From: Burkholderiales bacterium
GTDB taxonomy: Bacteria; Pseudomonadota; Gammaproteobacteria; Burkholderiales; Burkholderiaceae_C
Assembly (NCBI GenBank): GCA_947446855.1
Contig: CANFIH010000019.1
Location: 1-37,631, forward strand
Length of the DNA stretch: 37,631 nucleotides
Reading direction: 5' to 3'
Both the position numbers and the translations under genes were made by a program. Positions 1,518-34,859 of this stretch are shown here, piece after piece (position 1 is the stretch's first letter; the number at the start of each line of letters is the position of its first letter). Under the pieces are notes generated by a model that did no database searches, was not told where the DNA came from, and saw only the letters and a list, made by a program, of their open reading frames with translations.

Positions 1518-2360
1518 TCAGGCAGCCTGCGCAGCCCGCAACTGGTCGCGTGTGGCGATGGCTGCGTTGCGGGCAGCCTGCGCGAAGTCTGCCCCGCCCG
1601 ACGCGTACAGCACCGCGCGCGAGGAATTGACCACAATCGGCGCCGTGGTTTCGCCCTTGGCGGCACGGTAACCGGCCTTGACGGTGGCCACCGCATCACC
1701 ACCCTGAGCACCGACGCCGGGAATCAGCAGCGGCACCGTGGGCGCGACTTTGCGCACGCGCTCAATTTCCGTCGGGTAGGTGGCACCCACCACCAACCCG
1801 AGTTGGCCGTTCAGGTTCCAGGGGCCTTGCACCAGGGAGGCGATGTGTTCAAACAGTGTAGGGTGCCCTTCCAGACCGGCCAGGCGCTGGTTTTGCAAAT
1901 CGTCACCGCCGGGGTTGGAGGTGCGGCACAGCAGGAAGGCGCCCTTGCCGTGGTACTTCAGATACGGTTGCACCGAGTCAAACCCCATGAACGGCGACAG
2001 GGTGACGCAGTCGGCACCGTAGCGCTCGAAGGCTTCTTTGGCGTATTGCTCGGCGGTGCTACCGATATCGCCGCGCTTGGCGTCCAGAATGATGGGCACA
2101 TCGGGTGCGGTGCGGCGCATGTGCTCCATCAGGCGCTCCAACTGGGCCTCGGCACCATGGGCGGCAAAGTAGGCAATCTGCGGTTTGAAGGCAATCACCA
2201 GGTCGGCCGTGGCGTCGACGATAGCTGCGCAAAAGTCGTAGATCTTACTGACGTCGCCCTGCATGGCAGCGGGGAATTTGGCGGGTTCCGGGTCCAGCCC
2301 CACGCACAGAAGAGAGCCGTTGATGCGCTCGGCCGTGCGCAGTTGTTCAATAAAGGTCAT
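1518..2360 (-). CDS. pyrF: orotidine 5'-phosphate decarboxylase
   Basis: PyrF converts orotidine monophosphate to UMP, the last step of de novo pyrimidine synthesis, in the cytoplasm. The 280-residue length fits the longer type-2 subfamily. The catalytic signature DAKRGDIG is at 93-100, where the Asp-Lys-Asp charged network does the decarboxylation. The substrate-binding GLDPEP segment is at 21-26, and phosphate-binding segments PGVGAQGGD and [10 protein letters not shown] lie near the C-terminus. The ATG at 2360 has no Shine-Dalgarno sequence; instead a -10-like hexamer ends 6 nt before it, suggesting a leaderless mRNA separate from readthrough of the uracil-DNA glycosylase gene 48 bp upstream. 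The glutathione S-transferase genes follow on the same strand. Confidence 0.97.
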
Positions 2361-2366
2361 GGGGCA

Positions 2367-2372
2367 AGTTTA
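2367..2372 (-). promoter_or_regulatory. -10-like hexamer before pyrF (leaderless layout)
   Basis: On the minus strand TAAACT (4 of 6 to TATAAT) lies 6 nt from the pyrF ATG. A start site about 6-7 nt downstream of the hexamer would fall on the A of the ATG. No clear -35 hexamer was found. Confidence 0.35.
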
Positions 2373-2408
2373 GCGGCAGCAATCCCTGCCTGCTGTCTCG
2401 CATGCCCG

Positions 2409-3296
2409 CTAGATATCCAGCGCCGCAGCGGCAAAGCACAGGTCGGCCCAGGCTTTGGCCTTGTCGGCGCTGTTGCGCATCAATTGCCGCGGCGGATAGG
2501 TCACCACCACCGGTACGCCCTGGTAGCGGTGCAGCGCGCCACGCAGCTTGCCCAGGGGTTGGGCCGCCAGCGCAGGCGACCCGGCCAGCAGCAACTGGTT
2601 GGCAAAGCGGCCCATGGCCAGGATGATCTTCGGTTGTATCAGTGCCATCTCGCGCTGCAGGTAGGGCGCACATTGGGCCAGCTCGGCGGCCTGCGGCATG
2701 GCACCCGGGGCCGGCCGGCACTTCAGCACATTGGTGACATAGGCCAGCCGGGCAGCGGGCACAGCCTCTGACACGGCCGGCAGGCAGTTGGCCTGCTGCA
2801 GGCCCAGGGCGCGCAGCATGTTGGACAGCAACACACCATCCTGCCCGGCAAAGGGCGCACCCGCACGGTCCTCGTCCTCGTCCGGGGGATCGCCCACCAC
2901 CATCCAATCGCAGCGTGCGGGGGTGGGCACCAGCGTGGTGTTGCTGCGCCCGGCGCACATGCCACAGGCCTGGCAATTGCGCACGGCGTCGGTCAACGCC
3001 GCCCAGTCGAGCGAGGCCGTTTCCGGCACGGCTGCAGGTGTCTTGGGCGCCGCCGGTGGCGGCAGGCGCGACGGCGCTGCCCGGGTACCATCCACCGCCA
3101 CTGCCGGCACAGGTGCGAGCACAGCGGGGGCCAGCGGCCGGCTCGCAGGTGCCGGAGCGTGTGGCATGCGGGTCGGGGCTGCTTGCACCGGCGCTGACGC
3201 CGGCTCCAGAATGGCCACCCCTGTTTCGGGTAGCCAGACGTGCACACCCATCTCCTGCAGCATGGCGCGTTGGCGGGTGTCGAGTTCTAGTGCCAT
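2409..3296 (-). CDS. family 4-type uracil-DNA glycosylase with altered active-site motifs
   Basis: This 295-residue protein resembles the 4Fe-4S family 4/5 uracil-DNA glycosylases, which excise uracil from DNA. After an Ala/Pro-rich, probably disordered N-terminal region (about 35-95) comes a glycosylase domain (about 100-290). Cluster-type cysteines are at 108, 111 and 114 (CxxCxxC), at 193 in TNVLKCRP and at 209 in QCAPYL. The first active-site motif, usually GE(A/G)PG, reads GDPPDEDEDR (135-144). The second, usually YHP, reads TYPPRQLMRN (266-275), so the conserved His is replaced by Pro. The fold and cluster are therefore supported, but the catalytic mechanism may be modified or lineage-specific. 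rimI ends 15 bp upstream on the same strand, so they are probably co-transcribed. Confidence 0.8.
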   Translation of the reverse strand: MALELDTRQRAMLQEMGVHVWLPETGVAILEPASAPVQAAPTRMPHAPAPASRPLAPAVLAPVPAVAVDGTRAAPSRLPPPAAPKTPAAVPETASLDWAALTDAVRNCQACGMCAGRSNTTLVPTPARCDWMVVGDPPDEDEDRAGAPFAGQDGVLLSNMLRALGLQQANCLPAVSEAVPAARLAYVTNVLKCRPAPGAMPQAAELAQCAPYLQREMALIQPKIILAMGRFANQLLLAGSPALAAQPLGKLRGALHRYQGVPVVVTYPPRQLMRNSADKAKAWADLCFAAAALDI

Positions 3297-3311
3297 AGGT
3301 ATCCGTGGGGT

Positions 3312-3791
3312 TCAGAGCCGCAGGCTCATGACAATCGCGTCTTCGCGCTTGCCGTTTGATGCCGGGTAATAGTCTTTGCGCAGGCCTACGCGGCGGTAGC
3401 CGTGGGCCTCGTACACACCCAGGGCGCGCAGATTGTTGACGCGCACTTCCAGCCACAGCCACTCGGCCGCCTGTCCGCGCGCCCAGATCGCCAGCGCGTC
3501 CAGCAAGATGCGCGACCAACCCTGCCCCTGGTACTCGGGGGCCACGGTGATGTTGAGCAGGTGCACCTCGTCCACGCCCTTCATGGCCACGAAGTAGCCC
3601 AGCAGGAAACCGTCGGCCATCAACATCTGCGCCTGATAACCGCTGTGCAACGCGTCAATGAAGTTGGCGCGCGACCAGGGCTGCGCATACGCGCGCTGCT
3701 CCACGCGCATGACCTCTTCCACGCGATCGGCCAGCAAGGGCTCGAAGCGGGCCTCGATAACGCTACGGTCTGTATCCAACGATGCGCTCAT
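3312..3791 (-). CDS. rimI: ribosomal protein bS18 alanine N-acetyltransferase
   Basis: RimI acetylates the N-terminal alanine of ribosomal protein S18 using acetyl-CoA. The 159-residue product is a single GNAT domain. Visible features are an N-terminal RVEQRAYAQPW segment of the RimI type, the beta-strand LLNITVAPEYQGQGW with the acetyl-CoA pyrophosphate loop (Q-G-Q-G), LEVRVNN followed by ALGVYEAHGY, and the typical C-terminal RKDYYP. The frame is open upstream inside tsaB; the ATG at 3791 is chosen because it gives normal family length and lies 4 nt after the tsaB stop. The tsaB-rimI pairing is common in bacteria and supports the assignment over a generic GNAT. Confidence 0.9.
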   Translation of the reverse strand: MSASLDTDRSVIEARFEPLLADRVEEVMRVEQRAYAQPWSRANFIDALHSGYQAQMLMADGFLLGYFVAMKGVDEVHLLNITVAPEYQGQGWSRILLDALAIWARGQAAEWLWLEVRVNNLRALGVYEAHGYRRVGLRKDYYPASNGKREDAIVMSLRL

Positions 3792-3795
3792 GGTG

Positions 3796-4533
3796 TCAGG
3801 CGGCTGCAACCTGCGCAGCCTTGATGGCAGCGCGTTCGGCCGTGGTTTGGGCCACCTTGTCGCGCACATAAGTGGGCAAGGCATGTTCGGCAGCGACTGC
3901 TTTGCCGGCAGCCAGCATGTGCGGCGCCAGGCGCAGCATGGCAGCAGCCTGGGGCAGGGCCTGGATGCGGGCCGCAGCCGCCGGCAAACCAATCAGACGC
4001 TCACCATAGACGGCAAAGGCATTGCCCGCCGCGACCGACTCTCCCGCGCCTGGCACGGGCAAAGCCACCGCTTCGGGCTTCACCAGCATGGCAGGCTGCA
4101 ACTCGGTCCAGCTCCCCCGTTCAAAGGCAAAACTGGCCAGATAAATTTCGTCCATGCGCGCATCCAACAGCGCTGTGACCTGCCCGCTTTCAGCGGCGAG
4201 CAAGGCGCTGTGGCGCGCCTCTTCCGCCACCGCCAGCAAGGAGTTCACCGGCAGCACCGGCACATGGGCGCCAAAGGCCAGCCCTTGCGCGACGGCACAG
4301 GCGGTGCGCAGGCCGGTAAACGAGCCGGGGCCACAGCCAAAGCAAATGGCGTCGAGTTCACTCAAGGCCATACCGGACTGGCGCATCAGCTCCAGTACCC
4401 CGGCGATCAGGCCGGTAGACGCCTTGGCCCCGCCCACGCCCTGCTGTTGCCACAGACCGGCCGCTGCTCCGTCGTCACGCGAGACAGCGATGGACATCAC
4501 ATCGGTACTGGTATCAAAAGCCAATAGTTTCAT
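3796..4533 (-). CDS. tsaB: tRNA threonylcarbamoyladenosine biosynthesis protein TsaB
   Basis: TsaB is the ASKHA-fold scaffold partner of TsaD and TsaE in the complex that transfers threonylcarbamoyl from its adenylate to A37 of ANN-decoding tRNAs (t6A). The 245-residue protein has the N-terminal strand LLAFDTST (3-10) and the family signature GPGSFTGLR (68-76), followed by GLAFG and VNSLLAVAE. The substrate-making partner Sua5 is encoded nearby at 6264-7337. The ATG overlaps the stop of a 37-codon ORF as ATGA (4530-4533), implying translational coupling. rimI follows 4 nt downstream. Confidence 0.95.
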   Translation of the reverse strand: MKLLAFDTSTDVMSIAVSRDDGAAAGLWQQQGVGGAKASTGLIAGVLELMRQSGMALSELDAICFGCGPGSFTGLRTACAVAQGLAFGAHVPVLPVNSLLAVAEEARHSALLAAESGQVTALLDARMDEIYLASFAFERGSWTELQPAMLVKPEAVALPVPGAGESVAAGNAFAVYGERLIGLPAAAARIQALPQAAAMLRLAPHMLAAGKAVAAEHALPTYVRDKVAQTTAERAAIKAAQVAAA

Positions 4534-4643
4534 GGTTTCTTCACTCCGGCCTGGCGCACACCCAACACAATGCCGGCGGCCACCGGGGTCAGGCCGGGCA
4601 GCACATTCCAGGGCAGGGAGGCGGTTGAAGTGGTGGGTGACAT
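4530..4643 (-). CDS. putative 37-residue leader ORF coupled to tsaB
   Basis: I do not recognise this peptide. It begins M-S-P-T-T, has a mostly hydrophobic centre (VLPGLTPVAAGIVLGV) and ends in R-Q-A-G-V-K-K-P. Two features support it as translated: its stop overlaps the tsaB start as ATGA, and its ATG lies exactly 6 nt after a perfect-looking GATAAT -10 hexamer (4650-4655), the same spacing seen at other leaderless starts in this window. It may be a real small protein, possibly membrane-associated, or only a ribosome-loading leader that lets a leaderless mRNA deliver ribosomes to tsaB. Longer in-frame starts exist upstream but would precede the putative promoter. Confidence 0.4.
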   Translation of the reverse strand: MSPTTSTASLPWNVLPGLTPVAAGIVLGVRQAGVKKP

Positions 4644-4649
4644 ACCCTG

Positions 4650-4655
4650 ATTATC
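4650..4655 (-). promoter_or_regulatory. -10 hexamer GATAAT before the tsaB leader ORF
   Basis: GATAAT (5 of 6 to TATAAT) on the minus strand is separated from the leader-ORF ATG by 6 nt, which would place the start site at or next to the ATG. No Shine-Dalgarno sequence and no good -35 hexamer are visible. Confidence 0.45.
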
Positions 4656-4743
4656 GGGGCTAGCCCGGGCAGCGCATTCGGCGCCGCAATTGCCTCGCAG
4701 ACTACGGGACGAGCGCGGCGAGTGAACGACCGCAATGCGGCCG

Positions 4744-4749
4744 GATAAT
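4744..4749 (+). promoter_or_regulatory. -10 hexamer GATAAT before dacB
   Basis: GATAAT lies 6 nt before the ATG at 4756. The only -35-like match at suitable spacing is poor (GTGAAC at 4722-4727). Its position inside the longer reading frame that begins at 4735 argues that translation starts at 4756. Confidence 0.45.
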
Positions 4750-4755
4750 GCCCGC

Positions 4756-6267
4756 ATGCTGCTCCGTCCCTGGCTTTACGCCCTTCTCTACCTCCTGTCT
4801 TGGGGCGCAATGGCGGCCCCCCTGGGCGCGATTGCGCCCGAAGTAGAGGCCGCCCTGGCGCGAGCCAAGATTCCGCGCGAGGCCGTCGCCCTGCTGGTGT
4901 TGGACGCAGAAGCCAGTACCGCAGCTCCCCGCCTGAGCCACCGCGCCCAGGTGCCCATGAACCCGGCGTCGGTGATGAAGCTGACCACTACCTTTGCCGC
5001 ACTTGACCTGCTGGGCCCGGCCTACGCCTGGAGCACGCCGGTCTATGTGGACGGGCCGGTACGCGACGGCACGCTCACTGGCAACGTCTACATCAAGGGC
5101 CAGGGCGACCCCAAACTGGTGCTGGAAAAATTGTGGCTGCTGATGCGCCGCCTGCAGGGCCTGGGCATCAAGCAGATTGCCGGCGACATCGTGCTGGACC
5201 GCAGCGCCTTTGAGGTACCCGATGCCGACCCCGCCACCTTCGACGGCGAGCCGCTGCGCCCCTACAACGCCGCGCCGGACGCGCTCCTGATCAACTTCAA
5301 AGCGGTGGTGATGACCTTTGCGCCGGATCGCGCAGGCAGTACCGCGCAAGTGCAGTTTGACCCGCCACTGGCCGGCGTGCAGATGCAGACCTCCGTGCCC
5401 TTGGGCAGTGGCGAATGCGGTGACTACCGCGGCGTCCTCAAGGCCGATTTTTCGGATGCCAAACACATCCGCTTTGCTGGCAGCTACGCGGCCAGCTGCG
5501 GAGAAAAGGTGTGGCCCGTGGCCTACGCCGACCCGCGCAGCTATGGCGTGCGCGCGGTGCAAGGCATGTGGCTGGACATGGGCGGCAAGCTCAGCGGCAC
5601 GGTGCGCTACGGCACGGTGCCTGCCGCCCTGGCGGCGGGCAAGCCGGCACTGGAAGCAAGCTCTGCGCCGCTGGCCGAAATCATCCGCGACATCAACAAG
5701 TACAGCAACAACGTCATGGCGCAACAGGTTTTTTTGACGCTGGGCCGGGTGGTGCCGGGCGCATGGGGCTCGAACGGGGATGGCGCCAGCAACGAGTCAC
5801 CGGGCGCAACTGCCTCGGGCATGGGCGGTGCATCTGCTTTGAACGCCGGTAGCTTTGCAGCATCCCGCACGGTAATGCAGCGCTGGTGGAAGGAGCGCAT
5901 CAGCGCCGAAGAGATGCCGGTGTGGGATAACGGCTCCGGCCTGTCGCGCCAGGAACGCATCAGCGCGCAAGGCCTGGCCCGCCTGCTGCAGGTGGCCTGG
6001 CGCTCACCCTACATGTCGGAACTGATGGGTTCGTTACCGATTACCGGTGTGGACGGCACGCTCAAGCGCTTCAAGTCCAAAGCGGTAGGCAGCGCCCACC
6101 TCAAGACCGGCACCCTGAGCAACGCCCTGGCCCGTGCAGGTTATGTGGATGGCGCCAGCGGCAAGCGCTATGTGCTGGTGGCCCTGATCAACCACGCCAA
6201 CGCCAATACCGAAGCGGCGCGTGTGGTGATGGAGACGCTGGTGGATTGGGCGGCCAGAGACAACTAA
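4756..6267 (+). CDS. dacB: D-alanyl-D-alanine carboxypeptidase/endopeptidase (PBP4 type)
   Basis: This is a periplasmic class C low-molecular-weight penicillin-binding protein that trims peptidoglycan stem peptides and cleaves cross-links. From the ATG at 4756 it has 503 residues. A signal peptide (about 1-20) has a Leu/Tyr-rich core ending in G-A-M-A. The three active-site motifs are SVMK (72-75), SNN (317-319) and KTG (450-452), and between the first two sits the family's large inserted domain. A Gly/Ser/Ala-rich loop at about 336-370 looks like a species-specific insertion. An ATG at 4735 is also in frame, but a -10 hexamer lies between the two starts and the hydrophobic core fits either. 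The TAA overlaps the convergent sua5 stop. Confidence 0.95.
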   Translation: MLLRPWLYALLYLLSWGAMAAPLGAIAPEVEAALARAKIPREAVALLVLDAEASTAAPRLSHRAQVPMNPASVMKLTTTFAALDLLGPAYAWSTPVYVDGPVRDGTLTGNVYIKGQGDPKLVLEKLWLLMRRLQGLGIKQIAGDIVLDRSAFEVPDADPATFDGEPLRPYNAAPDALLINFKAVVMTFAPDRAGSTAQVQFDPPLAGVQMQTSVPLGSGECGDYRGVLKADFSDAKHIRFAGSYAASCGEKVWPVAYADPRSYGVRAVQGMWLDMGGKLSGTVRYGTVPAALAAGKPALEASSAPLAEIIRDINKYSNNVMAQQVFLTLGRVVPGAWGSNGDGASNESPGATASGMGGASALNAGSFAASRTVMQRWWKERISAEEMPVWDNGSGLSRQERISAQGLARLLQVAWRSPYMSELMGSLPITGVDGTLKRFKSKAVGSAHLKTGTLSNALARAGYVDGASGKRYVLVALINHANANTEAARVVMETLVDWAARDN

Positions 6268-7337
6268 GCAGCCGCGCGCTGCAGCCGATCGCGCACCCCA
6301 TCCCAGGCTACGTCGTCCGGCGGAGTCTCCACCCAGATCAGCTGGACGCGCAGGGCGTCGAGTTCGCGCAACACCGAGAACAACTCGTGCGCTGCCACCG
6401 CCGCATCAGACGGCATGCGGCGCAGCTCAATCTGGCGCGCAGCGGTCTTGAGCGGCACGCGGGAATAAATGGCAACCGTCTTGCCGGGCGTGGCGGTTTT
6501 ATCCACCTCCGTGCCCAACAAGTCCAAAGCCTGTTGCAAGGCCTTGGCATCCATCAGGCGCACGGTGGCATTCGGTGCGTAGTGCGACTCCAGCGTGCCG
6601 GAGGCGCGCGGTGCAGCTTGTCCTTGTGCCTCCAACTCTTCGGGAGATAGCAGCGCGCGACCACAGGCGGCGGCCACCTGTTCGCTGGTGATGGCGCCCG
6701 GGCGCAGCAACACCGGCGCGCCGCGCGTGCAATCGATGATGGTGGACTCGATGCCCACGTCGCAGGGGCCGCCGTCCAGTATCAACAAATCTGGCGTGTC
6801 GGCGAACTCACTTTGCACATGCTGCGCCGTGGTCGGGCTGACGCGGCCAAAGCGGTTGGCGCTGGGCGCCGCCACGCCCCAGACCACGGGCTCACCCGCC
6901 GTGGGTTGGCGCAGGGCGGCCAGCACGGCTTGCGCCACCGGGTGCGCCGGGCAGCGCAGGCCAATCGTGTTCTGTCCGCCGGCGGCGATCGCACCCACGC
7001 CCTCGCGGCGCGGCAGGATCAGCGTCAGCGGTCCCGGCCAGAAGGCCGACATCAGCTGCTGGGCAAACGAGGGCACGCGCCCCGCGTAATGCGCCACACC
7101 CGACATGCCGCCGTCAAACGCGGCCACGTGCACAATCAGCGGGTGGTCGCTGGGCCGGCCCTTGGCTGCAAAGATGGCAGCTACCGCCGCGGCGTTGTCG
7201 GCATCGGCTCCCAGGCCGTAGACGGTCTCCGTGGGCAGGCCGATCAGCTGGCCGGCGCGCAGGGCCTGTGCCGCCGCGCCAATCGCCTCGGGTGCGAACT
7301 CCACACCGTCGGCAAATACATAGGCGGACACGATCAT
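6264..7337 (-). CDS. sua5: L-threonylcarbamoyladenylate synthase (Sua5 type)
   Basis: This enzyme makes threonylcarbamoyl-AMP from threonine, bicarbonate and ATP, the first step of t6A tRNA modification, in the cytoplasm. The YrdC domain covers about 12-205, with PTETVYGLG (35-43), KGRPSDHPL (59-67), a later AAPSANRFGRVSPT segment and LLRPGAI. At 357 residues it is the long Sua5 form: a linker with SGTLESHYAP (near 245-255) leads into the C-terminal Sua5 domain. It is last in purE-purK-sua5, 34 bp after purK. The TAG stop overlaps the TAA of convergent dacB (shared bases 6265-6266). Together with tsaB this window supplies two of the four usual t6A proteins. Confidence 0.95.
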   Translation of the reverse strand: MIVSAYVFADGVEFAPEAIGAAAQALRAGQLIGLPTETVYGLGADADNAAAVAAIFAAKGRPSDHPLIVHVAAFDGGMSGVAHYAGRVPSFAQQLMSAFWPGPLTLILPRREGVGAIAAGGQNTIGLRCPAHPVAQAVLAALRQPTAGEPVVWGVAAPSANRFGRVSPTTAQHVQSEFADTPDLLILDGGPCDVGIESTIIDCTRGAPVLLRPGAITSEQVAAACGRALLSPEELEAQGQAAPRASGTLESHYAPNATVRLMDAKALQQALDLLGTEVDKTATPGKTVAIYSRVPLKTAARQIELRRMPSDAAVAAHELFSVLRELDALRVQLIWVETPPDDVAWDGVRDRLQRAAA

Positions 7338-7371
7338 GGTGCGGCCCTTTCAAGAAAAGTTAAAAGGCTTC

Positions 7372-8580
7372 TTAAAAAGCTTCGATGCCCAGAATGTGTG
7401 CCGCCTGCAGGGCGATGCGGCGCACCTGCTCGATGGTGCTGCCCGTGATGTTCAGGTGGCCCATCTTGCGCCCCTTGGCGGCGCGCAGCTTGCCGTACAG
7501 ATGCAGATGCGTGCCGGGCAATGCCAGCACCTGTTCCCAAGCAGGCACGCCACCTTCAGGCCAGATATCACCCAGCAGGTTGAGCATGATGGCCGGGCTG
7601 TGCTGGCGCGGCTGCACCAGGGGCAGGCCCGCCAGGGTGCGCACCTGCAGATCGAACTGCGAGACGTCGCAGGCGTCCAAGCTGTAGTGGCCGCTGTTGT
7701 GCGGGCGCGGTGCCATCTCGTTCACCACCAGACCGCCCAGCCCTTGTGCGGCCGGATTCGACGCGTCCAGCACAAAGAACTCCACGCACAGCACGCCCAC
7801 GTAGTTCAATTCCGCAGCAATCGCTTTGGCGGCGGCAATGGAACGCTCTGCCAGCGCCTCCGGCACATTGCCGGCATACACCTCGGTCACAGCCAGGATG
7901 CCCTCGCGGTGCAGATTGCGCTGCAGCGGCAGGTTGACGCAGTCGCCGTTGGCACCCCGCGCCACGATGACGGAGCACTCCAGTTGCAGCGGCAGCATTT
8001 TTTCCAGCACGCAGGGCAGGTGCTGCATGTCCGCCCAGGCCTGTTCCAGTTCGGCTGGGTTGCGCACACGGGCCTGGCCCTTGCCGTCATAGCCCATGCG
8101 GGCAGTCTTCAAGATGCCGGGCAGCAGGTTATCGGGCACGGCAGCCAGTTGCTCTGCCGTCTGAATCACAGCATGAGGGGCACAGGGCACACCACAGCGT
8201 ACAAAGTGGGCCTTCTCGGCAGCGCGGTCCTGGGCAATCGCAACCGATGCCGCAGCCGGAGACACCGGGCGGGTTTTTGCCAATTCGGCCAGCGCCGGAG
8301 CGGGCACGTTTTCAAATTCAGTGGTGATGGCCTGCGCCACCAGAGCCAGACGCTCCAGCCCCACCGGGTCGGTATAGCTGGTCTGAATATGGTGGTGGCT
8401 GACGCGACCGGCGGGGCTGAGCGGGTCCGGGTCCAGCACGGCGGTGAAGTACCCCATGCGCTGCGCGGCATGCGCAAACATGCGGCCGAGCTGACCACCG
8501 CCCATCACGCCTAGGGTCAACTCTTTAGAGCCGCCCAGCTTGATTTCCTCCGCACCACCAGGAGGCTGCAGCACCGCCAT
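7372..8580 (-). CDS. purK: 5-(carboxyamino)imidazole ribonucleotide synthase
   Basis: PurK carboxylates AIR at the expense of ATP to give N5-CAIR in purine synthesis. The 402-residue protein has an N-terminal pre-ATP-grasp domain with LGVMGGGQLGRM, an EFENVP segment, a central ATP-grasp domain with the glycine-rich GYDGKGQ loop, and VNEMAPRPHNSGHYS in the C-terminal half. The start is ambiguous: the sequence reads GTGATG, and the ATG at 8580 overlaps the purE stop by one base (TGATG), while the GTG at 8583 would overlap by four. I chose the ATG. PurK feeds PurE directly, and the two genes are translationally coupled. Confidence 0.97.
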   Translation of the reverse strand: MAVLQPPGGAEEIKLGGSKELTLGVMGGGQLGRMFAHAAQRMGYFTAVLDPDPLSPAGRVSHHHIQTSYTDPVGLERLALVAQAITTEFENVPAPALAELAKTRPVSPAAASVAIAQDRAAEKAHFVRCGVPCAPHAVIQTAEQLAAVPDNLLPGILKTARMGYDGKGQARVRNPAELEQAWADMQHLPCVLEKMLPLQLECSVIVARGANGDCVNLPLQRNLHREGILAVTEVYAGNVPEALAERSIAAAKAIAAELNYVGVLCVEFFVLDASNPAAQGLGGLVVNEMAPRPHNSGHYSLDACDVSQFDLQVRTLAGLPLVQPRQHSPAIMLNLLGDIWPEGGVPAWEQVLALPGTHLHLYGKLRAAKGRKMGHLNITGSTIEQVRRIALQAAHILGIEAF

Positions 8581-9083
8581 CACGCGGCACTGCCGGTAAT
8601 GGGCAGCACCATGTCGGTCGCGGCCTGGGTCTGGTCACGCCGGAAGGCATCAAGCTCCAGCCGCAAATCGCTATCGTGGTTGGCCAGCAAAGCCACAGCA
8701 AACAGGGCCGCATTGGCCGCACCCGCAGTGCCGATGGCAAAGGTGGCCACGGGAATTCCCTTGGGCATCTGCACAATGCTGTGCAGCGAGTCGACGCCCT
8801 GCAGGTGCTTGCTGGCCACCGGCACGCCCAGCACCGGCACCGTGGTCTTGGCGGCAATCATGCCCGGCAGGTGGGCGGCACCTCCGGCCCCGGCGATGAT
8901 GGCCTTGAGGCCGCGCCCCGCCGCGGCTTCCGCGTAAGCGAACATGGCATCGGGCATGCGGTGGGCAGAAACCACCTTTGCTTCAAAGCCGATGCCAAAC
9001 TGTTGGAGAATCTGCACTGCATGTTGCATGGTGTCCCAATCGGAACTGGAACCCATGACGACGCCTACTTGAATGGTTTTCAT
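8580..9083 (-). CDS. purE: N5-CAIR mutase, PurE class I
   Basis: PurE moves the carboxyl group of N5-CAIR to give CAIR. The 167-residue protein matches class I PurE in length. Signatures are GSSSDW (11-16, phosphate loop), SAHRMP (39-44, with the catalytic His) and GGAAHLPG (67-74), then [20 protein letters not shown] and [10 protein letters not shown]. It heads purE-purK-sua5. Only 35 bp separate its ATG from that of the divergent thioredoxin-like gene. A TAAAAT hexamer 6 nt upstream of the ATG, without Shine-Dalgarno sequence, suggests a leaderless message. Confidence 0.97.
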
Positions 9084-9089
9084 CCGCCA

Positions 9090-9095
9090 ATTTTA
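9090..9095 (-). promoter_or_regulatory. -10 hexamer TAAAAT before purE
   Basis: On the minus strand TAAAAT (5 of 6 to consensus) is 6 nt from the purE ATG. The -35 position would fall at about 9113-9119, touching the start codon of the divergent gene, and matches the consensus poorly. Confidence 0.45.
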
Positions 9096-9118
9096 CGTTT
9101 TACCCAGAGCCCCTACCC

Positions 9119-27340: not shown

Positions 27341-27350
27341 ATCCACCCTC

Positions 27351-27669
27351 TTAGAAAAAAGTCGCCACGCTGCTGCAAGCGGCAGGGGCACCCGCATCAC
27401 CAGCTGCCGGCGCGTACGGGCGCACGGGGGCGGGGTTTGCGGCGCAGCCATGGCGCAGGGCCTGGGCATCCTGTCGGGACGGGCCTCGGGTCGATTGCAG
27501 GTAGGGGACGATGTTGAGAAAGGACAGCACCGTGTGCGATGCCGCCGCTGGGCGTGCCCACACCGGTATGACAACCGCACACAGCTTGAACAGTGTGTGT
27601 GCCGCTTGCGCTACGGCTGCAGTATCTGAGGTGGTGGACATCCAGATTGAAATAGTATTTTTGACGCAT
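27351..27669 (-). pseudogene. possible frameshifted gene remnant upstream of cheY
   Basis: I do not recognise a complete gene here. An ATG at 27669 has an excellent Shine-Dalgarno sequence (GGAG at 27675-27678) and opens a frame beginning MRQKYYFNLD, which then becomes Arg/Pro-rich and unconvincing. A second frame, shifted by one and starting with an ATG at 27641, reads on to a TAA at 27351 and contains the more protein-like stretch AAHTLFKLCAVVIPVWAR. Joining the start of the first frame to the second would need one frameshift. A short functional protein of 96 residues from 27641 cannot be excluded. Position (10 bp before cheY, same strand) suggests a chemotaxis-linked gene that has decayed. 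Confidence 0.35.
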
Positions 27670-27801
27670 GTTAGCTCCAAAAACCACTTCAGTGGAACGC
27701 GGACCGTCGATTCAGGAAGCCGGTGGCCGCTTTTTTTTGATTATTGAGACAAGCCGGTCAAAGGCGGCTGGTTGGTCGCCTTCGCCGGACTGCCAGCCGA
27801 G
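27670..27801. other. AT-rich spacer before the chemotaxis operon
   Basis: This spacer holds a run of eight Ts (plus strand, 27731-27738), an AT-rich AATAAT (minus, 27740-27745) and a TTGACC (minus, 27756-27761). The last two are only 10 bp apart, too close for a normal sigma70 promoter. A 7-bp stem (27765-27771 with 27793-27799) lies just after the pgk stop but lacks a T-run. No convincing sigma28 flagellar-type promoter was found. Confidence 0.3.
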
Positions 27802-28995
27802 CTACTGCGCGGCGCGCTTGCTCAGAATTTCAAAGGCCGGCAGGGTCTTGCCTTCCAGCACTTCCAGGAAAGCGCCGCCACCGGTGGAGATGTAGCCGAT
27901 CTTGTCTTCGATACCGTACTTGGCAATGGCCGCCAGCGTGTCGCCGCCACCGGCGATCGAGAAGGCGCTGGACTCGGCAATCGCATGCGCGATGGTCTTG
28001 GTGCCGTTCTCAAACGCGGCAAATTCGAACACGCCCACCGGGCCGTTCCAGACAATGGTGCCGGCCTTCTTCAGTTGCTCTGCCAGGGCCTGGGCCGTGA
28101 CCGGGCCGATGTCCAGAATCAGGTCATCGTCTTCCACTTCGGTGGCCAGTTTGGTGGTAGCCACGGCGTCAGGCGAGAAGCTCTTGGCGGTCACCACGTC
28201 GGTGGGGATGGGCACGGCCGCACCGCGCGCGCGCATGGCCTCGATCACGGCGGTGGCCTCGGCCAGCAGATCGGGCTCGGCCAGGCTCTTGCCGATCTTC
28301 AGACCGGCCGCCAGCAGGAAGGTGTTGGCAATGCCGCCGCCCACAATCAGCTGGTCCACATTGGCTGCCAGGGCCTTGAGGATGGTCAGCTTGGTGGACA
28401 CCTTGGAGCCGGCAACGATGGCCACCAGCGGGCGCTTGGGTGCCAGCAGGGCCTTGGAGATGGCGTCCATTTCAGCCGCCAGCAGCGGGCCGGCACAGGC
28501 AATGGGCGCGAACTGGGCGATGCCGTAGGTGCTGGCCTCGGCGCGGTGGGCGGTGCCGAAGGCATCGTGCACAAAGATGTCGCACAGGGCGGCCATTTTT
28601 TGGGCCAGCGCTTCGTTGTTCTTCTTCTCGCCCTTGTTGACGCGGCAGTTTTCCAGCATCACCAGCTCGCCAGGTGCCACGCTCACGCCGTCGACCCAGT
28701 TGGCCAGCACCGGGATTTCGCGGCCCATGAGCTCGCCCATGCGGCGGGCCACCGGGGCCAGCGAGTCTGCGGGTTTGAATTCACCTTCGGTCGGGCGACC
28801 CAGGTGCGAGGTAACCATGACGGCAGCACCGGCCTTGAGGGCCACCTCAATGCAGGGCACGCTGGCACGCACGCGGGTGTCTTCGGTGATGTTGCCGGCA
28901 TCGTCCTGCGGCACGTTCAGGTCGGCACGGATAAACACGCGTTTGCCGGCCACTTTGCCTTGGGCGCACAGATCAGAAAAACGGATAACGTTCAT
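27802..28995 (-). CDS. pgk: phosphoglycerate kinase
   Basis: Pgk transfers phosphate between 1,3-bisphosphoglycerate and ADP in glycolysis and gluconeogenesis. The 397-residue length is typical. Motifs are RADLNVP (23-29), TSHLGRP (62-68), the HDAFGTAHR segment, [18 protein letters not shown] and the nucleotide-binding GGGDTLAAI. The frame extends upstream, but the ATG at 28995 is chosen because AAGGTGA lies 5 nt before it and the family N-terminus MNVIRFSDL begins there. In the Burkholderiales order I recall, pgk is next to pyk; here about 10 kb of chemotaxis and signalling genes lies between them. Confidence 0.97.
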
Positions 28996-29033
28996 GGAAT
29001 CACCTTCGGTTGAGATCAAAAAGAGTTGCGCGG

Positions 29034-29039
29034 ATTGTA
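29034..29039 (-). promoter_or_regulatory. -10 hexamer TACAAT before pgk
   Basis: On the minus strand TACAAT (5 of 6 to TATAAT) would start transcription near 29027, giving a leader of about 32 nt that includes the Shine-Dalgarno sequence. The -35 position is not convincing. Confidence 0.35.
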
Positions 29040-29101
29040 GAAGCCGCCACCTGCCGGGATGCTGATGCCGATCAAGCCCGGTACGTAACCCCCGGCGCAA
29101 G

Positions 29102-29464
29102 TTACCAGCCCAGGCCTATGTGCAAGGGCAGGTACACGGCCATGCCGCAGACGATGGCGCCCAGCACCACCTGCCCGGCGCCGCGGCGCAGGAAGAAATA
29201 CGCCATGCCGGCGGCCACGCCGTAGAGCCGCGCATCCTGCAGGCTGTGAATCAGATGGCCCTGGCTCATCACCACTTCCGGCGCAATCACCGCCGACAGG
29301 GCCGCCATGGGCGCGTATTGCAAGCCGCGCCGGGCCCAGTCCGGCAGCGTCCACTCCCGGCTGGAGAGAAAGAAGAAGCAGCGCGCCAGCACCGAGACGC
29401 AGGCGAGCGCCGCAATCGTGGCCATATGACCCAGGTTGACGTCTGCGCTGAACAGGGCGCCCAC
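29102..29464 (-). CDS. azlD: AzlD-family transporter subunit
   Basis: AzlD is the small membrane partner of AzlC in branched-chain amino acid export. The protein has about four hydrophobic segments, with the family-typical [31 protein letters not shown] and MAYFFLRRG. The start is uncertain: the GTG at 29464 lies 1 nt after the azlC stop and gives 120 residues, while the ATG at 29425 gives 107. I chose the GTG because the family usually has about ten residues before the first membrane helix. It follows azlC directly, in def-fmt-azlC-azlD order. Confidence 0.85.
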
Positions 29465-29465
29465 G

Positions 29466-30209
29466 TTATTGCGCCGCCTTGGAAGGTGCTGCAGCACCCC
29501 AGGGGGTCTTTTCTAGCAACAAGCACAGGGCTACCGCTGCCGCAATCGCCACCAGAATATTGAGCTTCATGGGCAGGGCAAAGGCCGCCACCCCGGCGCA
29601 AGCCGCCACGCCGCCGGCGACCCAACGCAGCCGGCTGGAGGCCAGCGAGCAGGTCATGCCCACCAGCGCCAGGATGCCGGCAAAGCCCAGCCCCCAGGTG
29701 GTAGGAATGAAGTTGGCCAACACCACGCCGATCAGGCTGCTGCTGGTCCAGCTGAACCAGTTGATGCTGCCATTGCCCAGCAGATAGGCCATCTGTGCGA
29801 AGCGGCCTGCCTCATCGGTGGCGGGTTGCGGATGCTGCTTGATGAACAGCACATAGGTCAGGTCTCCCGTCAGGTAGCCGGTGAGCAGGCGCAGCCGCAG
29901 GGGCAGGTGCATGACGTAGTGCCGCATGTGGGCACTGAACACCACAAAGCGCAAATTGACACAGAAGGCCGTGGCCAGAATCACCCACACCGGCGCGCCG
30001 CCCAGCATGAGTGGAATGGCAGCCAGCTGTGCGCTGCCGGCAAACACGGTCGCCGCCATGAACAAGGCCTCCACCGTTCCCATGCCCGACTTGACCATCG
30101 CCACGCCGGTCATCAGGCCCCAGGCGGCAATGCCGGGGGCCACGGCTGCCATATCGGCAAAGCCACGGCGAAACTGCGGGTGCCGGATCAGGGCGCGTGG
30201 CGAAAGCAT
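29466..30209 (-). CDS. azlC: AzlC-family branched-chain amino acid exporter subunit
   Basis: AzlC is the large inner-membrane subunit of the AzlCD branched-chain amino acid exporter. The 247-residue protein has several hydrophobic helices and the family motifs FAGSAQLAAIPLM, NLRFVVFSAHMR and TGYLTGDLTYVLF. The start reads GTGATG; I chose the ATG at 30209, which overlaps the fmt stop by one base (TGATG), although the GTG at 30212 is possible. Coupling to fmt looks like operon packing without functional link. The transported substrate is inferred from the family only. Confidence 0.92.
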   Translation of the reverse strand: MLSPRALIRHPQFRRGFADMAAVAPGIAAWGLMTGVAMVKSGMGTVEALFMAATVFAGSAQLAAIPLMLGGAPVWVILATAFCVNLRFVVFSAHMRHYVMHLPLRLRLLTGYLTGDLTYVLFIKQHPQPATDEAGRFAQMAYLLGNGSINWFSWTSSSLIGVVLANFIPTTWGLGFAGILALVGMTCSLASSRLRWVAGGVAACAGVAAFALPMKLNILVAIAAAVALCLLLEKTPWGAAAPSKAAQ

Positions 30210-31246
30210 CACAGAGCGGCCGCGCCGCCAGGCTGGGCAATGGGTTCACATTGCATGCCGGGCTGGACTGCAAAGCCGCGCAAGAAATCCTCCACGGCCA
30301 AGCGCTTGCCCCCGGGACGCTGCAATTCCTGCAACAGCACCGTGCCGCCCGACGCAGCGACAGCAATACCCGCAGGCGTCACAGCCATCACGGTGCCGGC
30401 GGCGGCGTCACCGCCATCGGGCCCCGGCGCGGCACGCCAGATCTTGATGGTTTCGCCATGCAGCACGGCCGTGGCACCGGGAAAAGGATTGAAGGCGCGC
30501 ACACGGCGGCAGATCACCTGCGCGTCAAGGCGCCAGTCGATCGCAGCCTCGTGTTTTTCGATTTTGTGGGCATAGCTCACACCTTCTGCGGGTTGTTTGA
30601 CGGCCGGCAAGGCCTGCTGCACGGCCAAGTCCAGGGCATTGACAATCAGGCTGGCACCCAGCTCCGCCACCTTGTCATGCAAGGAAGCTGTGCTGTCATC
30701 CGGCGCAATGGCCAAGGCCTGCTGCAACAGCATGTCGCCGGTATCCAGCCCTGCATCCATTTGCATGATGGTGACGCCGGTATGGCTGTCGCCGGCCTCA
30801 ATAGCGCGGTGAATCGGCGCCGCACCGCGCCAGCGCGGCAGCAGCGAGCCGTGGATATTCAGGCAACCCAGGCGGGCACGGCCATCGGCATGCGGCGCTT
30901 GCATCGCGTCCAGCACCCATTGCGGCAGGATCAGGCCATAGGCCGCGACTACCATCACATCGGCATCGGCGGCCAGAATGGCTTCGCGCGCGGCGGCGGC
31001 ATCGGCGGCGTATTTGCCATCCAGCCGCAGCCCCTGCGGTTGCGCCACTGACAAGCCCTGGTCCAGGGCAAACTGCTTGACGCTGGAGGCCTGCAGCTTC
31101 ATGCCGCGTCCGGCCGGGCGGTCGGGCTGGCTCAGCACCAGCACGATGTCTGCGCCGGCAGCATGCAGACGCTCCAGGGCCAGCCGGGCAAATTCCGGCG
31201 TACCGGCAAAAATGACTTTGAGGGCGTGGTCGGCGACCGGGCTCAA
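30209..31246 (-). CDS. fmt: methionyl-tRNA formyltransferase
   Basis: Fmt formylates initiator Met-tRNA using 10-formyltetrahydrofolate. The 345-residue protein has [10 protein letters not shown] (11-20) and the catalytic residues Asn130 and His132 in [17 protein letters not shown] and Asp168 in [13 protein letters not shown]-terminal tRNA-binding domain covers about 240-330, with AFNPFPGA. No ATG or GTG lies in frame before the family core, and the best start is a TTG at 31246 that overlaps the def stop as TTGA, so synthesis is probably by coupled reinitiation. def and fmt act at the two ends of the same N-terminal formyl cycle and are commonly paired. Confidence 0.95.
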
Positions 31247-31752
31247 CGCGATTCCTCGCGCTGCAACTTCTGCATCTTGGTCTTGATGCGGTTGCGCTTG
31301 AGTGGCGAGAGGTATTCCACGAACACCTTGCCCAACAGATGGTCCATCTCGTGCTGCACACAGACGGCCAGAATTTCCTCGGCTTCGATCCTGCGACTTG
31401 CGCCCGTTTCGTCCAGCGCCGCCACGTGCACGGCGTCATGCCGCAGCACACCGTCGTAAATGCCGGGCACCGACAGACAACCTTCCTCGTTGAGATGGGT
31501 GGCTTCACTCTTCCAGACGATTTCCGGGTTGATCAGCACCAGGGGTTGGTTGCGTTCCTCCGAGGTATCGATGACGATGACGCGCTCATGCACATCCACC
31601 TGGGTGGCGGCCAGGCCTATGCCTTTGGCCTCGTACATGGTTTCCAGCATGTCGGCAACCAGCGTCTGTATGCGTGCATCCACGGCCACAACCGGCTTGG
31701 CGACCTTGTGCAGCTTGGGATCGGGATAACAAAGAATGGAAAGTAAGGCCAT
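31243..31752 (-). CDS. def: peptide deformylase
   Basis: This metalloenzyme removes the formyl group from the N-terminal Met of new proteins. The 169-residue protein has all three family motifs: GIGLAATQ (44-51), EGCLSVP (90-96, metal-binding Cys92) and QHEMDHL (133-139, His134, catalytic Glu135, His138). Length and motif order match the type 1 enzyme of Gram-negatives. The stop overlaps the fmt TTG start. The divergent LysM gene begins 157 bp away. No Shine-Dalgarno sequence is obvious before the ATG. Confidence 0.97.
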
Positions 31753-31896
31753 GGTTTTCGTAGAGAGATGGCGCTATTTTCGCCACTTTTACCCGCGCCG
31801 GTCTGGCGACCTCTGCAAAAACGTTGCTGCATCAAGGGCTTGAGCGCAAAATCGTGCGTAAACTATCAAGTCACACCCGGGACGGCTGCACGATAT

Positions 31897-31902
31897 GACA
31901 AT
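31897..31902 (+). promoter_or_regulatory. -10-like hexamer before the LysM gene
   Basis: GACAAT (4 of 6 to TATAAT) lies 7 nt before the ATG at 31910 and overlaps the earlier in-frame ATG at 31895. This favours 31910 as the start, with a leaderless message. No clear -35. Confidence 0.35.
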
Positions 31903-31909
31903 ACACCTG

Positions 31910-33109
31910 ATGGCGAAATCCAAAGCGGCGCTGGCTGTACTGGCTGCAATTTCCTGCACGATGGCACCAGCCTTCGCCCAGGAGCTCCCCATCACCAGCG
32001 CACAACAGGCAACCGCCAAAGACGTGGCGCAAAAAGGCGTGCCGCTCAGTGAACTGGCTCCCAACGCCCCGGAGCGTTACACCATCGTCCCCGGCGACAC
32101 GCTGTGGGCCGTCTCCAAACTGTTCCTCAAAACACCCTGGCGTTGGCCCGAGCTGTGGGGCATGAATCTGGAGCAGATCAAGAATCCGCACCGCATTTAC
32201 CCCGGCCAGGTCCTGCTGCTGTTGCGCAGCAACGGCATGGCCACGCTGCGCATGGAAGACGGCAGTGGCGGGCTGACGGACTCGAACCTGAGCACGGTAC
32301 GCGTCTCGCCTAAAAACCGCTACGCGGCCATGTCGGAAAATGCACTGCCGACCCTGCGTCCCAGCGCGATCGAACCTTTTCTGGCCGAGCCCATCATCGT
32401 GGATGCGGCAGAGTTCGCAGCGGCACCGCGCATTGTTTCGGCTCAGGAAGGCCGCGTCCTGCTGACCCGCGGCGACCGCGCCTATGCGCGCGGCCAGGCC
32501 GGCGCGCCACTGCTCGACGATCAGGACCAAGAGAAAATTTACCGTGTCTTTCGCAGCGCCACGCCTCTGAAGGACCCCGGCACCGGCTTGGTTCTGGGCT
32601 ACGAAGCGATCTACGCCGGCAAGGCCCGACTGATGAGCAGCGAGACCACCTCTGAGGAAGTGGATACCGAAGGCAAGACCAGCACGGCAATTGTCCCGGC
32701 TCGCATTGACATCATCCTGGCCAAGGAAGAAATCCGGGTCGGCGACCGCCTGCTACCCGAACCGCCACGCCAGGTCAGAACCTATACGCCCCATGCACCG
32801 CGTGACGCGGTGAGCGGGCGCATCGTGTCGGTCTACGGCACTGCCGTCGAAAATGCCGCACAAAACCAGGTTGTGGTCATCAACAAGGGCAGTCTGGACG
32901 GGATCGATGCAGGAACGGTGCTGGCGATTTTGAAGAACGGCGCCCGCGTCATCGACAAACAGGACGAAACCCGGCCGCTGCTCAAACTGCCCGATGAACG
33001 CAATGGCCTGATGATGGTGTTCCGCAGCTTCGAGCGCCTTTCCTACGCACTGATTCTGGACATCACCGACGGCGTGCGCGTGGGCGACCGACTGGCCTCG
33101 CCCAAGTAG
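31910..33109 (+). CDS. exported LysM-domain protein
   Basis: This 399-residue protein has a signal peptide (about 1-24, ending P-A-F-A before QELP) and one LysM domain (about 56-104) with RYTIVPGDTLWAVSKLFL and IYPGQVL, so it should bind peptidoglycan in the periplasm. The rest (about 110-395) has no motif I recognise apart from short repeats of the form G-R-I-V/G-D-R-L. The family is common in Betaproteobacteria directly upstream of dprA, as here (25 bp gap). No hydrolase motif is visible, so a structural or scaffold role is more likely than enzyme activity. The ATG at 31895 is also possible but precedes the signal-peptide core and overlaps a -10-like hexamer. Confidence 0.88.
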   Translation: MAKSKAALAVLAAISCTMAPAFAQELPITSAQQATAKDVAQKGVPLSELAPNAPERYTIVPGDTLWAVSKLFLKTPWRWPELWGMNLEQIKNPHRIYPGQVLLLLRSNGMATLRMEDGSGGLTDSNLSTVRVSPKNRYAAMSENALPTLRPSAIEPFLAEPIIVDAAEFAAAPRIVSAQEGRVLLTRGDRAYARGQAGAPLLDDQDQEKIYRVFRSATPLKDPGTGLVLGYEAIYAGKARLMSSETTSEEVDTEGKTSTAIVPARIDIILAKEEIRVGDRLLPEPPRQVRTYTPHAPRDAVSGRIVSVYGTAVENAAQNQVVVINKGSLDGIDAGTVLAILKNGARVIDKQDETRPLLKLPDERNGLMMVFRSFERLSYALILDITDGVRVGDRLASPK

Positions 33110-33120
33110 CAGCCCTGGGG

Positions 33121-33126
33121 CACAAT
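33121..33126 (+). promoter_or_regulatory. -10-like hexamer before dprA
   Basis: CACAAT (4 of 6 to TATAAT) lies 8 nt before the dprA ATG, which has no Shine-Dalgarno sequence. Readthrough from the LysM gene is also possible. Confidence 0.3.
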
Positions 33127-33134
33127 ATTGCCCC

Positions 33135-34301
33135 ATGGACCACCCAGAACTCGCAGCCTGGCTGCGACTATTGCTTACCCCCGGAGTCGGCAACACCAGC
33201 GCACGCAAGTTGTTGGCGGCGTTCGGCCCGCCCGAGACTGTGTTTGCGCAGTCCGAAGGTGCCCTGTGCGCCGTGGTCAGCAGCAACCAGGCCGCAGCCC
33301 TGCGGCAAGAGCCACCCGAATATGCGGCCCTGCTCGCCACCACCTGGGACTGGCTGCAGGCCGCACCCGATTCCCGCCGGGTACTGCCGCTGGGCGACCC
33401 CCTGTATCCGCACCGCCTGCTCCACACCGAAGACCCGCCCCTGCTGTTGTATGGCATGGGCATGCCCGAAGCCTGGAGCGGCAACCTGCTCAACGCCGCC
33501 ACCACCCGCTGTCTGGCGCTGGTCGGCAGCCGCAACCCCAGCCCCCAGGGGGCCGCCAATGCACGGCAGTTTGCACAGACCCTGGCCGAGGCCGGCCTGA
33601 CCCTGGTGTCCGGCCTGGCCCTGGGCGTGGATGGCGCTGCACACGAGGGTGCATTGGCCGGCGCTCGCGCCGGCCAACTGGCCACGGTGGCGGTGGTGGG
33701 CACCGGCCTGGACCGGGTCTACCCTGGACAACACCGCGCCCTGGCACACCGCATAGCGCAATACGGCCTGTTGCTCAGTGAGTACCCGTTGGGCACATCC
33801 CCTCTGGCCGGTAATTTTCCGCGGCGCAATCGCATTATTTCGGGCCTGTCGATCGGCACCCTGGTGGCCGAAGCCGCCCTGCAATCAGGCTCGCTGATTA
33901 CCGCGCGCATGGCGCTGGAGCAGGGACGCGATGTGTTCGCCATTCCCGGCTCTATCCACTCGGCCCAGTCGCGTGGCTGCCATCTGCTGATCAAGCAGGG
34001 TGCCAAGCTGGTGGAAAGCGCGCAGGACATTCTGGAAGAGTTAGCGCTGGAACTGGCTCCCGCACCGGACCTGGATACCGCGGTGAGCGCCATCCCGGCC
34101 CAGGCTCAGTCCCCGGCTGACGCCACCCCGGAGTCGGCCTTGCTGCGTGCTTTGGGCTTCGAGCCAACGGGCCTGGACGCCCTTCAGGCCCGCACCGGCC
34201 TGCCCACCCCGGAGCTGCTGGCGCAGCTGATGGCACTGGAACTGCAAGGCCAGGTGGCTCGCTTGCCCGGCGGCCGGTTTCAGCGCATGGCACAGGCCTG
34301 A
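33135..34301 (+). CDS. dprA: DNA-processing protein DprA
   Basis: DprA binds incoming single-stranded DNA during natural transformation and loads RecA. The 388-residue protein has an N-terminal helical domain with LLTPGVGNTSARKLL and a Rossmann-like core. The core contains VGSRNPS (130-136), SGLALGVDGAAH (159-170), VVGTGLDRVYP and FPRRNRIISGLS, where the Arg residues contact DNA. A C-terminal winged-helix domain covers about 325-385. All domains are intact, so the gene should be functional, although competence in this organism cannot be judged from the window. An intrinsic terminator lies 45 bp downstream. Confidence 0.96.
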   Translation: MDHPELAAWLRLLLTPGVGNTSARKLLAAFGPPETVFAQSEGALCAVVSSNQAAALRQEPPEYAALLATTWDWLQAAPDSRRVLPLGDPLYPHRLLHTEDPPLLLYGMGMPEAWSGNLLNAATTRCLALVGSRNPSPQGAANARQFAQTLAEAGLTLVSGLALGVDGAAHEGALAGARAGQLATVAVVGTGLDRVYPGQHRALAHRIAQYGLLLSEYPLGTSPLAGNFPRRNRIISGLSIGTLVAEAALQSGSLITARMALEQGRDVFAIPGSIHSAQSRGCHLLIKQGAKLVESAQDILEELALELAPAPDLDTAVSAIPAQAQSPADATPESALLRALGFEPTGLDALQARTGLPTPELLAQLMALELQGQVARLPGGRFQRMAQA

Positions 34302-34346
34302 TCGGCCCGCGCACAAACACGTGAAAGCAAGATAAAGGGGGGAAGT

Positions 34347-34373
34347 CCGGCCGCGCCCCGGCTGGCATTTTTT
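34347..34373 (+). terminator. Rho-independent terminator after dprA
   Basis: A 7-bp GC-rich stem including one G-U pair (34347-34353 with 34359-34365) has a 5-nt loop and is followed by CA and six Ts. The smg -10 hexamer begins only 7 nt later, so the terminator occupies the smg -35 region. Confidence 0.7.
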
Positions 34374-34379
34374 CCGCGC

Positions 34380-34385
34380 TATAGT
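34380..34385 (+). promoter_or_regulatory. -10 hexamer TATAGT before smg
   Basis: TATAGT (5 of 6 to TATAAT) is 6 nt from the smg ATG, with no Shine-Dalgarno sequence. The -35 region is taken up by the dprA terminator and does not match the consensus. Confidence 0.45.
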
Positions 34386-34391
34386 GACTCC

Positions 34392-34859
34392 ATGTTTGAA
34401 GTGCTCACCTTTGTTTACGAAAACTACGACCCCGGCGAATCCTGCCCCGAGCCCGCACATTTGCAGCGCAAGCTCAGCGCGGTAGGCTTTGAATCCGATG
34501 AAATCGGAGACGCGCTGGCCTGGCTACAGGGTCTGGAGGGGGCCGCCCATCCGGCAGCGCAACTGCCGGCACTGATCGCGCCGCAGCCCGGCAGCATGCG
34601 CATTTACCCACGCCATGAACAATTCCACCTGGGTACCCAGGCCCTGGGATATCTGGGCTTTCTGGAAAACGCCTGCGCCATGCCGGCGCAGATCCGCGAA
34701 GTGGTAATTGAGCGCGCCCTGGCGGCACCGGGGGGACCGGTGCCACTGGCCGACCTCAAGATTATTGTGCTGATGGTCTACTGGCGCTTCGGCCAGGAGC
34801 CCGACGCGCTGCTGCTGGACGAACTCTGCGGCGACAGTTCCGACCTAGTGGTGCATTAG
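34392..34859 (+). CDS. smg: Smg/DUF494 family protein
   Basis: Smg (DUF494) is a small cytoplasmic protein of unknown function conserved in Gamma- and Betaproteobacteria, typically next to dprA. The 155-residue protein starts MFEVLTFVYENY, the family hallmark, continues with LSAVGFESDEI and ALAWL, and has the C-terminal DLKIIVLMVYW typical of the family. Neighbourhood and length agree. topA, which often follows smg, is not here; a convergent DUF1631 gene begins 47 bp further on. The ATG lies 6 nt after a -10-like hexamer. Confidence 0.93.
   Translation: MFEVLTFVYENYDPGESCPEPAHLQRKLSAVGFESDEIGDALAWLQGLEGAAHPAAQLPALIAPQPGSMRIYPRHEQFHLGTQALGYLGFLENACAMPAQIREVVIERALAAPGGPVPLADLKIIVLMVYWRFGQEPDALLLDELCGDSSDLVVH

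Follow-up and report, generated by a model that had tools for sequence, protein, structure and literature searches.

Among bacterial genes whose messages lack a leader, the closest described counterparts of those considered here are the TA-led genes of Zheng et al. (2011, PMC3160421) in which, as the available part of that survey describes them, a TANNNT hexamer lies about 10-12 nt before the start and no Shine-Dalgarno (SD) site is found. In the same part of the survey, 9 of 71 beta-proteobacterial genomes were positive for such genes, with a mean of 6.8% (2.8-10.6). According to the accessible portion of PMC9581028, which cites Lomsadze 2018, leaderless genes are predicted to be in use in 21.6% of bacterial species, and one open-access review names leaderless mRNA together with Burkholderiales. 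The TA-led anatomy also appears in a 37,631-nt stretch of DNA (hereafter the window; positions 1 to 37,631 of contig CANFIH010000019.1, C19) and in a sample of the 4.48-Mb draft genome (334 contigs) to which it belongs, that of a Rhodoferax-like betaproteobacterium. Here -10-like hexamers stop 6-8 nt before the start codon of several housekeeping genes, in excess of chance and with conserved spacing, and leaderless or nearly leaderless transcription is very probably the right reading of this arrangement.

The finding is ordinary in kind and scale. In Burkholderia cenocepacia J2315, another betaproteobacterium with leaderless transcripts, the set was measured by differential RNA-seq and is enriched in regulators, as far as the available text of PMC4603805 goes, whereas the cases in the window are housekeeping genes predicted from sequence. 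In Cupriavidus metallidurans CH34, leaders shorter than 5 nt occur at 4.67% of primary start sites in the accessible part of PMC7563307, near the value of about 5% obtained here, although that figure was measured on RNA and other genes are named there, while ours is a share of promoter-proximal (head) genes drawn from sequence. The same anatomy has been reported, in the part of PMC3160421 available, for about 20% of genes in Actinobacteria and about 40% in Deinococcus-Thermus, in contrast to about 5% of heads in this genome. Acidovorax, Rhodoferax, Polaromonas and Comamonadaceae are not named in PMC3160421, to which the present analysis adds gene-by-gene conservation in one genus. No open-access paper joining 'leaderless' with Comamonadaceae was found, in a search whose scope left out most subscription journals, and the open-access papers joining the term with Acidovorax included no start-site study by title. 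The useful addition is the gene-level detail of conservation for particular housekeeping genes.

An earlier note on the window had pointed to seven transcription-unit heads with such a hexamer and no SD sequence. All seven hexamers are present at exactly the claimed distance from an ATG, and six of the cases have no 4-base SD match, the seventh (smg) having only a GTGA that overlaps the end of its hexamer. The genes set against them as SD-bearing (pyk, cheY, the STAS gene, mcp, pgk, the esterase gene and ompW) do carry SD sites, matching at 4-6 bases; Pfam was used to test the names esterase and ompW, and the other five are those of the earlier note. The cases other than the LysM gene, which is listed further below, are the following:

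2367..2372, minus strand: -10-like TAAACT, 6 nt before the pyrF ATG (2360); sequence and orthologues
1518..2360, minus strand: pyrF, orotidine 5'-phosphate decarboxylase; Pfam OMPdecase
4650..4655, minus strand: -10-like GATAAT, 6 nt before the open reading frame (ORF) upstream of tsaB; sequence and relatives
4530..4643, minus strand: 37-codon ORF, remnant of an EamA-family gene; comparison with relatives
3796..4533, minus strand: tsaB; orthologue in 71 of 80 family loci, name taken from the earlier note
4744..4749, plus strand: -10-like GATAAT, 6 nt before the dacB ATG (4756); sequence and orthologues
4756..6267, plus strand: dacB, D-Ala-D-Ala carboxypeptidase (S13); Pfam Peptidase_S13
9090..9095, minus strand: -10-like TAAAAT, 6 nt before the purE ATG (9083); sequence and orthologues
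8580..9083, minus strand: purE; Pfam AIRC
33121..33126, plus strand: -10-like CACAAT, 8 nt before the dprA ATG (33135), weakly supported
33135..34301, plus strand: dprA; Pfam DNA_processg_A
34380..34385, plus strand: -10-like TATAGT, 6 nt before the smg ATG (34392); sequence and orthologues
34392..34859, plus strand: smg (DUF494); Pfam DUF494

Of the seven, five keep their spacing in relatives (purE least so), dprA is weak and the LysM case goes back to a misread start codon. On both strands of the window, 24 -10-like matches lie 6-8 nt before any of its 1155 ATGs, and 7 of these 24 are the claimed cases; with the latter left out, about 0.5 matches would be expected among ~36 gene starts (36 being a round figure), which gives P(>=6) of ~1e-5. 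This probability is only indicative, because the sites were picked by eye, and the fair test is the genome-wide one, which was positive.

The genome-wide test drew on the window and on 60 further 20-kb stretches, adjoining ones being joined (1.24 Mb in all, 28% of the genome), in which our own codon-usage gene finder called 869 genes. A gene counted as a head (n=540) if its upstream neighbour ran divergently or if 50 nt or more of upstream space lay free, and a hexamer was taken as -10-like if it read TANNNT or had at least 4 matches to TATAAT with A2 and T6. The count of hexamers against distance, with shuffled upstream regions as control, had been named in the earlier note as a test able to refute the idea, and in this sample it did not do so, since it shows a peak: matches at 4, 5, 6, 7, 8 and 9 nt before the start number 5, 7, 27, 14, 7 and 4, the mean over 12-79 nt being 6.7, and 6 nt (27/540 heads) is the maximum over all distances from 0 to 79 nt. 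In all, 41 of the 540 heads match at 6 or 7 nt vs 12.9 (maximum 22) in 300 dinucleotide shuffles; TANNNT alone gives a consistent result with mono-nucleotide shuffles (28 observed vs 11.5, maximum 22 of 500). In the version based on candidate starts, the excess over expectation amounts to 28.4 of 569 heads, or 5.0% (Poisson p 1e-9); more start candidates bring more noise, the excess then being 5.2% and, with still more of them, 3.8%. The word 'many' in the original proposal has to be scaled to about 5% of head genes.

Several features of the sites agree with this count. In heads without an SD match, TANNNT at 6 nt ranks seventh among 17,280 pattern-position tests, only C-rich patterns touching the start lying above it. 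A box at 0-12 nt is absent from all 86 heads whose SD match reaches at least 5 bases, which is partly trivial since the SD fills that place, and an SD match of four or more bases occurs in 8/41 box-bearing heads vs 190/499 other heads. The start codons of the 41 sites are 37 ATG and 4 GTG, with ATG in 377/499 of the other heads. Individual profiles were made of three genomes, namely the present one, a genus mate (G007) and a member of another family (G025), and the genus mate has 18 sites vs 5.3 expected. The pool of 80 dacB loci used for family comparisons overstates the peak because of repeated orthologues, and a count of one gene per cluster (174 clusters) is still raised, with 10.9 vs 4.2 at 6 and 7 nt together. 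As a separate observation, C is strongly favoured immediately upstream of start codons, where CNCC adjoins the start 68 times vs 15.3 expected in the 540 heads and 37 times vs 6.4 in 233 inner genes.

Conservation was followed in orthologues, using for the family counts the pool of 80 dacB loci and taking as own start the nearest aligned one. The nearest relatives of dacB are a Comamonadaceae record (L022, 89%), followed by Rhodoferax lacus and one further record (78% each). A box at 5-8 nt was found in 11/15 smg orthologues, and of 18 relatives of the same genus that were searched, the 10 that yielded smg all have it at 6-7 nt amid varied flanks; in L154, from another family, GAGGAG stands 12 nt before the ATG in place of the box. 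For pyrF the match at 5-8 nt is present in 29 of the 37 family loci with an orthologue, and for dacB in 44 of 75 distinct orthologues at the nearest start, or 52/75 when any nearby ATG is allowed. purE matches in 22/51 orthologues, which is weaker evidence because a thioredoxin-like gene diverges from it across a gap of 35 nt, the surroundings of the box being partly conserved as well. Only 4/28 relatives of dprA match at this spacing.

These alignments bear on the possibility that the promoters are real while the RNA begins a few nucleotides to either side of the ATG, translation using a downstream in-frame start. The starts were indeed called from sequence only; against this, orthologues of smg and murJ, and nearly all of those of pyrF, align from residue 1 or 2, and in many dacB orthologues the box stays next to the ATG despite a diverging signal peptide, so that this alternative is very unlikely.

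Six candidates were also drawn with a fixed seed from 39 lying outside the window, and relatives of each were sought in 61 genus genomes, at most the best 30 loci being compared (matches at 6-8 nt, own genome included). The box was found in 30/30 best loci of a major facilitator superfamily (MFS) gene and in 29/30 of murJ (L132:9992), the last having it at 5 nt and all 30 starting with GTG. It is present in 12/29 loci of a histidine phosphatase gene, many of the others reading CTTAAATC and so narrowly missing the pattern, and in 10/23 of the L011 gene. Four of the six candidates thus look real wholly or in part, in agreement, for a small sample, with the two-thirds share predicted from the excess over chance. 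In the murJ and MFS sets every orthologue matches, so that none had to be picked out by the pattern, the columns A2 and T6 being forced by the pattern and carrying no evidence. In the murJ set, pairwise identity is 0.27-0.28 in the flanks, 0.63-1.0 in the unforced hexamer columns and 0.87-1.0 in the GC preceding the hexamer; the respective values for MFS are 0.31-0.33 in the flanks, 0.40-1.0 in the hexamer and 0.87-0.93 in the four preceding bases. The purE and smg sets have less diverged flanks, at 0.36-0.42 and 0.38-0.51, respectively. In the sets of murJ, MFS and smg the box is immediately preceded by a conserved GC, which may act as an extended -10 in place of a -35 element.

A number of results weigh against leaderless promoters as the explanation. 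The earlier caution about weak -35 regions was justified, no -35 signal being detected genome-wide (mean TTGACA matches 2.32 vs 2.40 in controls) and no clear preference in six box-anchored orthologue sets; a -35 element at the 16-18 bp spacing of canonical sigma70 promoters was found in neither. Matches at 25 nt, where ordinary promoters are expected, number 14 and equal those at 7 nt, the next highest being the 12 each at 28 and 48 nt. Two of the six random picks are not conserved, namely a gene that we take to be UPF0016-like (5/30) and the L119 gene (1/4), dacB has no box at the nearest start in 31/75 orthologues, and 31/71 wider-family tsaB loci have none before EamA or tsaB. Unsupervised two-motif learning over start candidates did not recover the box with three random seeds, the method being too flexible, and learning seeded with TATAAT ended in an A-rich motif. 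The simple gene finder misplaces some starts, as in dacB and dprA, both called too short. G025 shows no excess (4 vs 7.2), from which it also follows that the pipeline does not create a peak everywhere. Finally, chance alone should account for about one third of the 41 sites. This last point, together with the LysM case and perhaps dprA, favours the view that the hexamers of the window are merely A/T-rich words chosen by eye among ~36 genes, a view that stands for LysM and is hardly credible for the whole set in the face of the genome-wide excess and of a spacing conserved amid diverged flanks in smg, pyrF, dacB and EamA/tsaB.

The absence of a detectable -35 element would also suit a different role for the hexamers, as A/T-rich pre-start segments that aid ribosome binding (e.g., by protein S1) on longer leaders and are not promoters. 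Such a role could be called for by the 342/540 heads without a 4-base SD match, and inner operon genes match the pattern too (5/233 at 6 nt, 1 at 7 nt). The signal is nevertheless TANNNT at 6-7 nt and not A/T richness, bases 5 and 6 after the box being A/T in only 3/41 and 2/41 sites, and a like box lies 21-32 nt upstream in leadered genes, which makes a ribosome-binding role unlikely.

Leaderless transcription as the preferred reading can be set out as follows. RNA polymerase starts about 7 nt after the -10 box. Sigma70-type promoters with the -10 box placed directly before the start codon would give messages beginning at, or a few nucleotides from, the A (or G) of that codon, and these messages, having no SD site, would be translated as leaderless mRNAs. 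Around 5% of promoter-proximal genes in this genome would use the mode, which selection would have kept in the genus for smg, dacB, the EamA gene before tsaB, murJ and the MFS gene, and in the wider family for pyrF. The proposal that transcription starts at the A of ATG finds support in the spacing excess and in the conservation of five of the seven cases, and is weakened by LysM, by dprA and by the missing -35 signal.

The LysM gene and the neighbouring peptide deformylase gene serve as leadered cases:

31859..31864, plus strand: TAAACT, 30 nt upstream of ATG 31895, probably the real -10 of the LysM gene
31895..33109, plus strand: LysM-domain gene from its true start, with GACAAT (31897-31902) inside; Pfam LysM
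31776..31781, minus strand: GAAAAT, 23 nt before the peptide deformylase ATG (31752), leadered contrast case; Pfam Pep_deformylase

The ATG at 31910, on which the LysM claim rested, is not the true start, and none of 24 relatives has a box at 5-8 nt. The true start is the in-frame ATG at 31895, 15 nt upstream, which places the claimed GACAAT within the coding sequence; in L202, L209 and L216 the 31910 ATG is missing and the in-frame ATG equivalent to 31895 is kept. Among 23 LysM relatives, with bins counted apart, a box lies at 25-28 nt in 8 and at 29-32 nt in 13. Peptide deformylase has its box at 21-24 nt in 15/23 relatives, as in an ordinary leadered promoter. In L206 and L214 the box of this gene is 8 nt from the ATG, so that it seems to have passed there from the leadered to the leaderless state.

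The 37-codon ORF before tsaB consists of the first ~9 and last ~28 codons of an EamA-family transporter gene, deleted internally in frame; its leaderless-like start is kept, and its TGA overlaps the tsaB ATG. The 37-aa product has no Pfam hit, so no intact EamA domain, while the intact relative in L022 hits EamA. A search for tsaB in 103 genomes of the genus gave a match in 91, and in each of the 30 best loci, the window's own among them, a box lies 6-8 nt ahead of the EamA gene, of its remnant or of tsaB directly. A full EamA-family gene lies 6-7 nt behind GATAAT and ends at tsaB in 26 of these loci, on the strand opposite dacB where the locus contains dacB, and its stop overlaps the tsaB ATG in 13 loci and lies 9-30 nt before it in 13. 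Short in-frame remnants occur in two of the 30, the window's own and L419, and in two others the box is followed at 8 nt by tsaB directly. The remnant of L419 is a different one, of 81 codons, common to the family locus L027, and the two may be one species.

The window's remnant reads as the EamA N-terminus joined to the C-terminus; at positions invariant in the eight nearest relatives compared, it differs by L to P, T to A and F to L. These substitutions suggest that the deletion is old and not an assembly error. tsaB is probably read by coupling from the 37-codon ORF; this coupling is only inferred and weak independent initiation may occur, because tsaB has its own GGAG 10 nt before the ATG. 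We tentatively suggest, with slightly less than even confidence, that the leaderless promoter and its start codon form an inseparable unit. Thus, when EamA was lost by in-frame deletion, the leaderless start would have been retained by selection together with the frame and the stop/start overlap, and the 37-codon ORF left behind would load ribosomes for tsaB, the same loss having been solved elsewhere by the 81-codon in-frame deletion or by placing tsaB directly behind the box.

Some further observations concern this intergenic region. Between dacB and the EamA gene or remnant (4643-4756), two GATAAT boxes stand back to back, each at 6 nt from the ATG of its own gene. The two start codons are as little as 33-39 nt apart in some relatives, and therefore any -35 element would lie across the other gene's box. 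L083 and L093 have, 6 nt behind GATAAT and before tsaB, a 34-codon ORF that is not obviously an EamA remnant; the EamA origin of the short ORFs before tsaB in L067, L083, L085 and L093 was not demonstrated, and these were left out of the argument.

Leaderless starts alter the presumed beginnings of genes, as well as their response to conditions and to antibiotics acting on initiation. A genus whose heads are leaderless in about 5% of cases, and whose housekeeping genes keep or lose this state between relatives, would offer a test of what drives the switch between leadered and leaderless expression.

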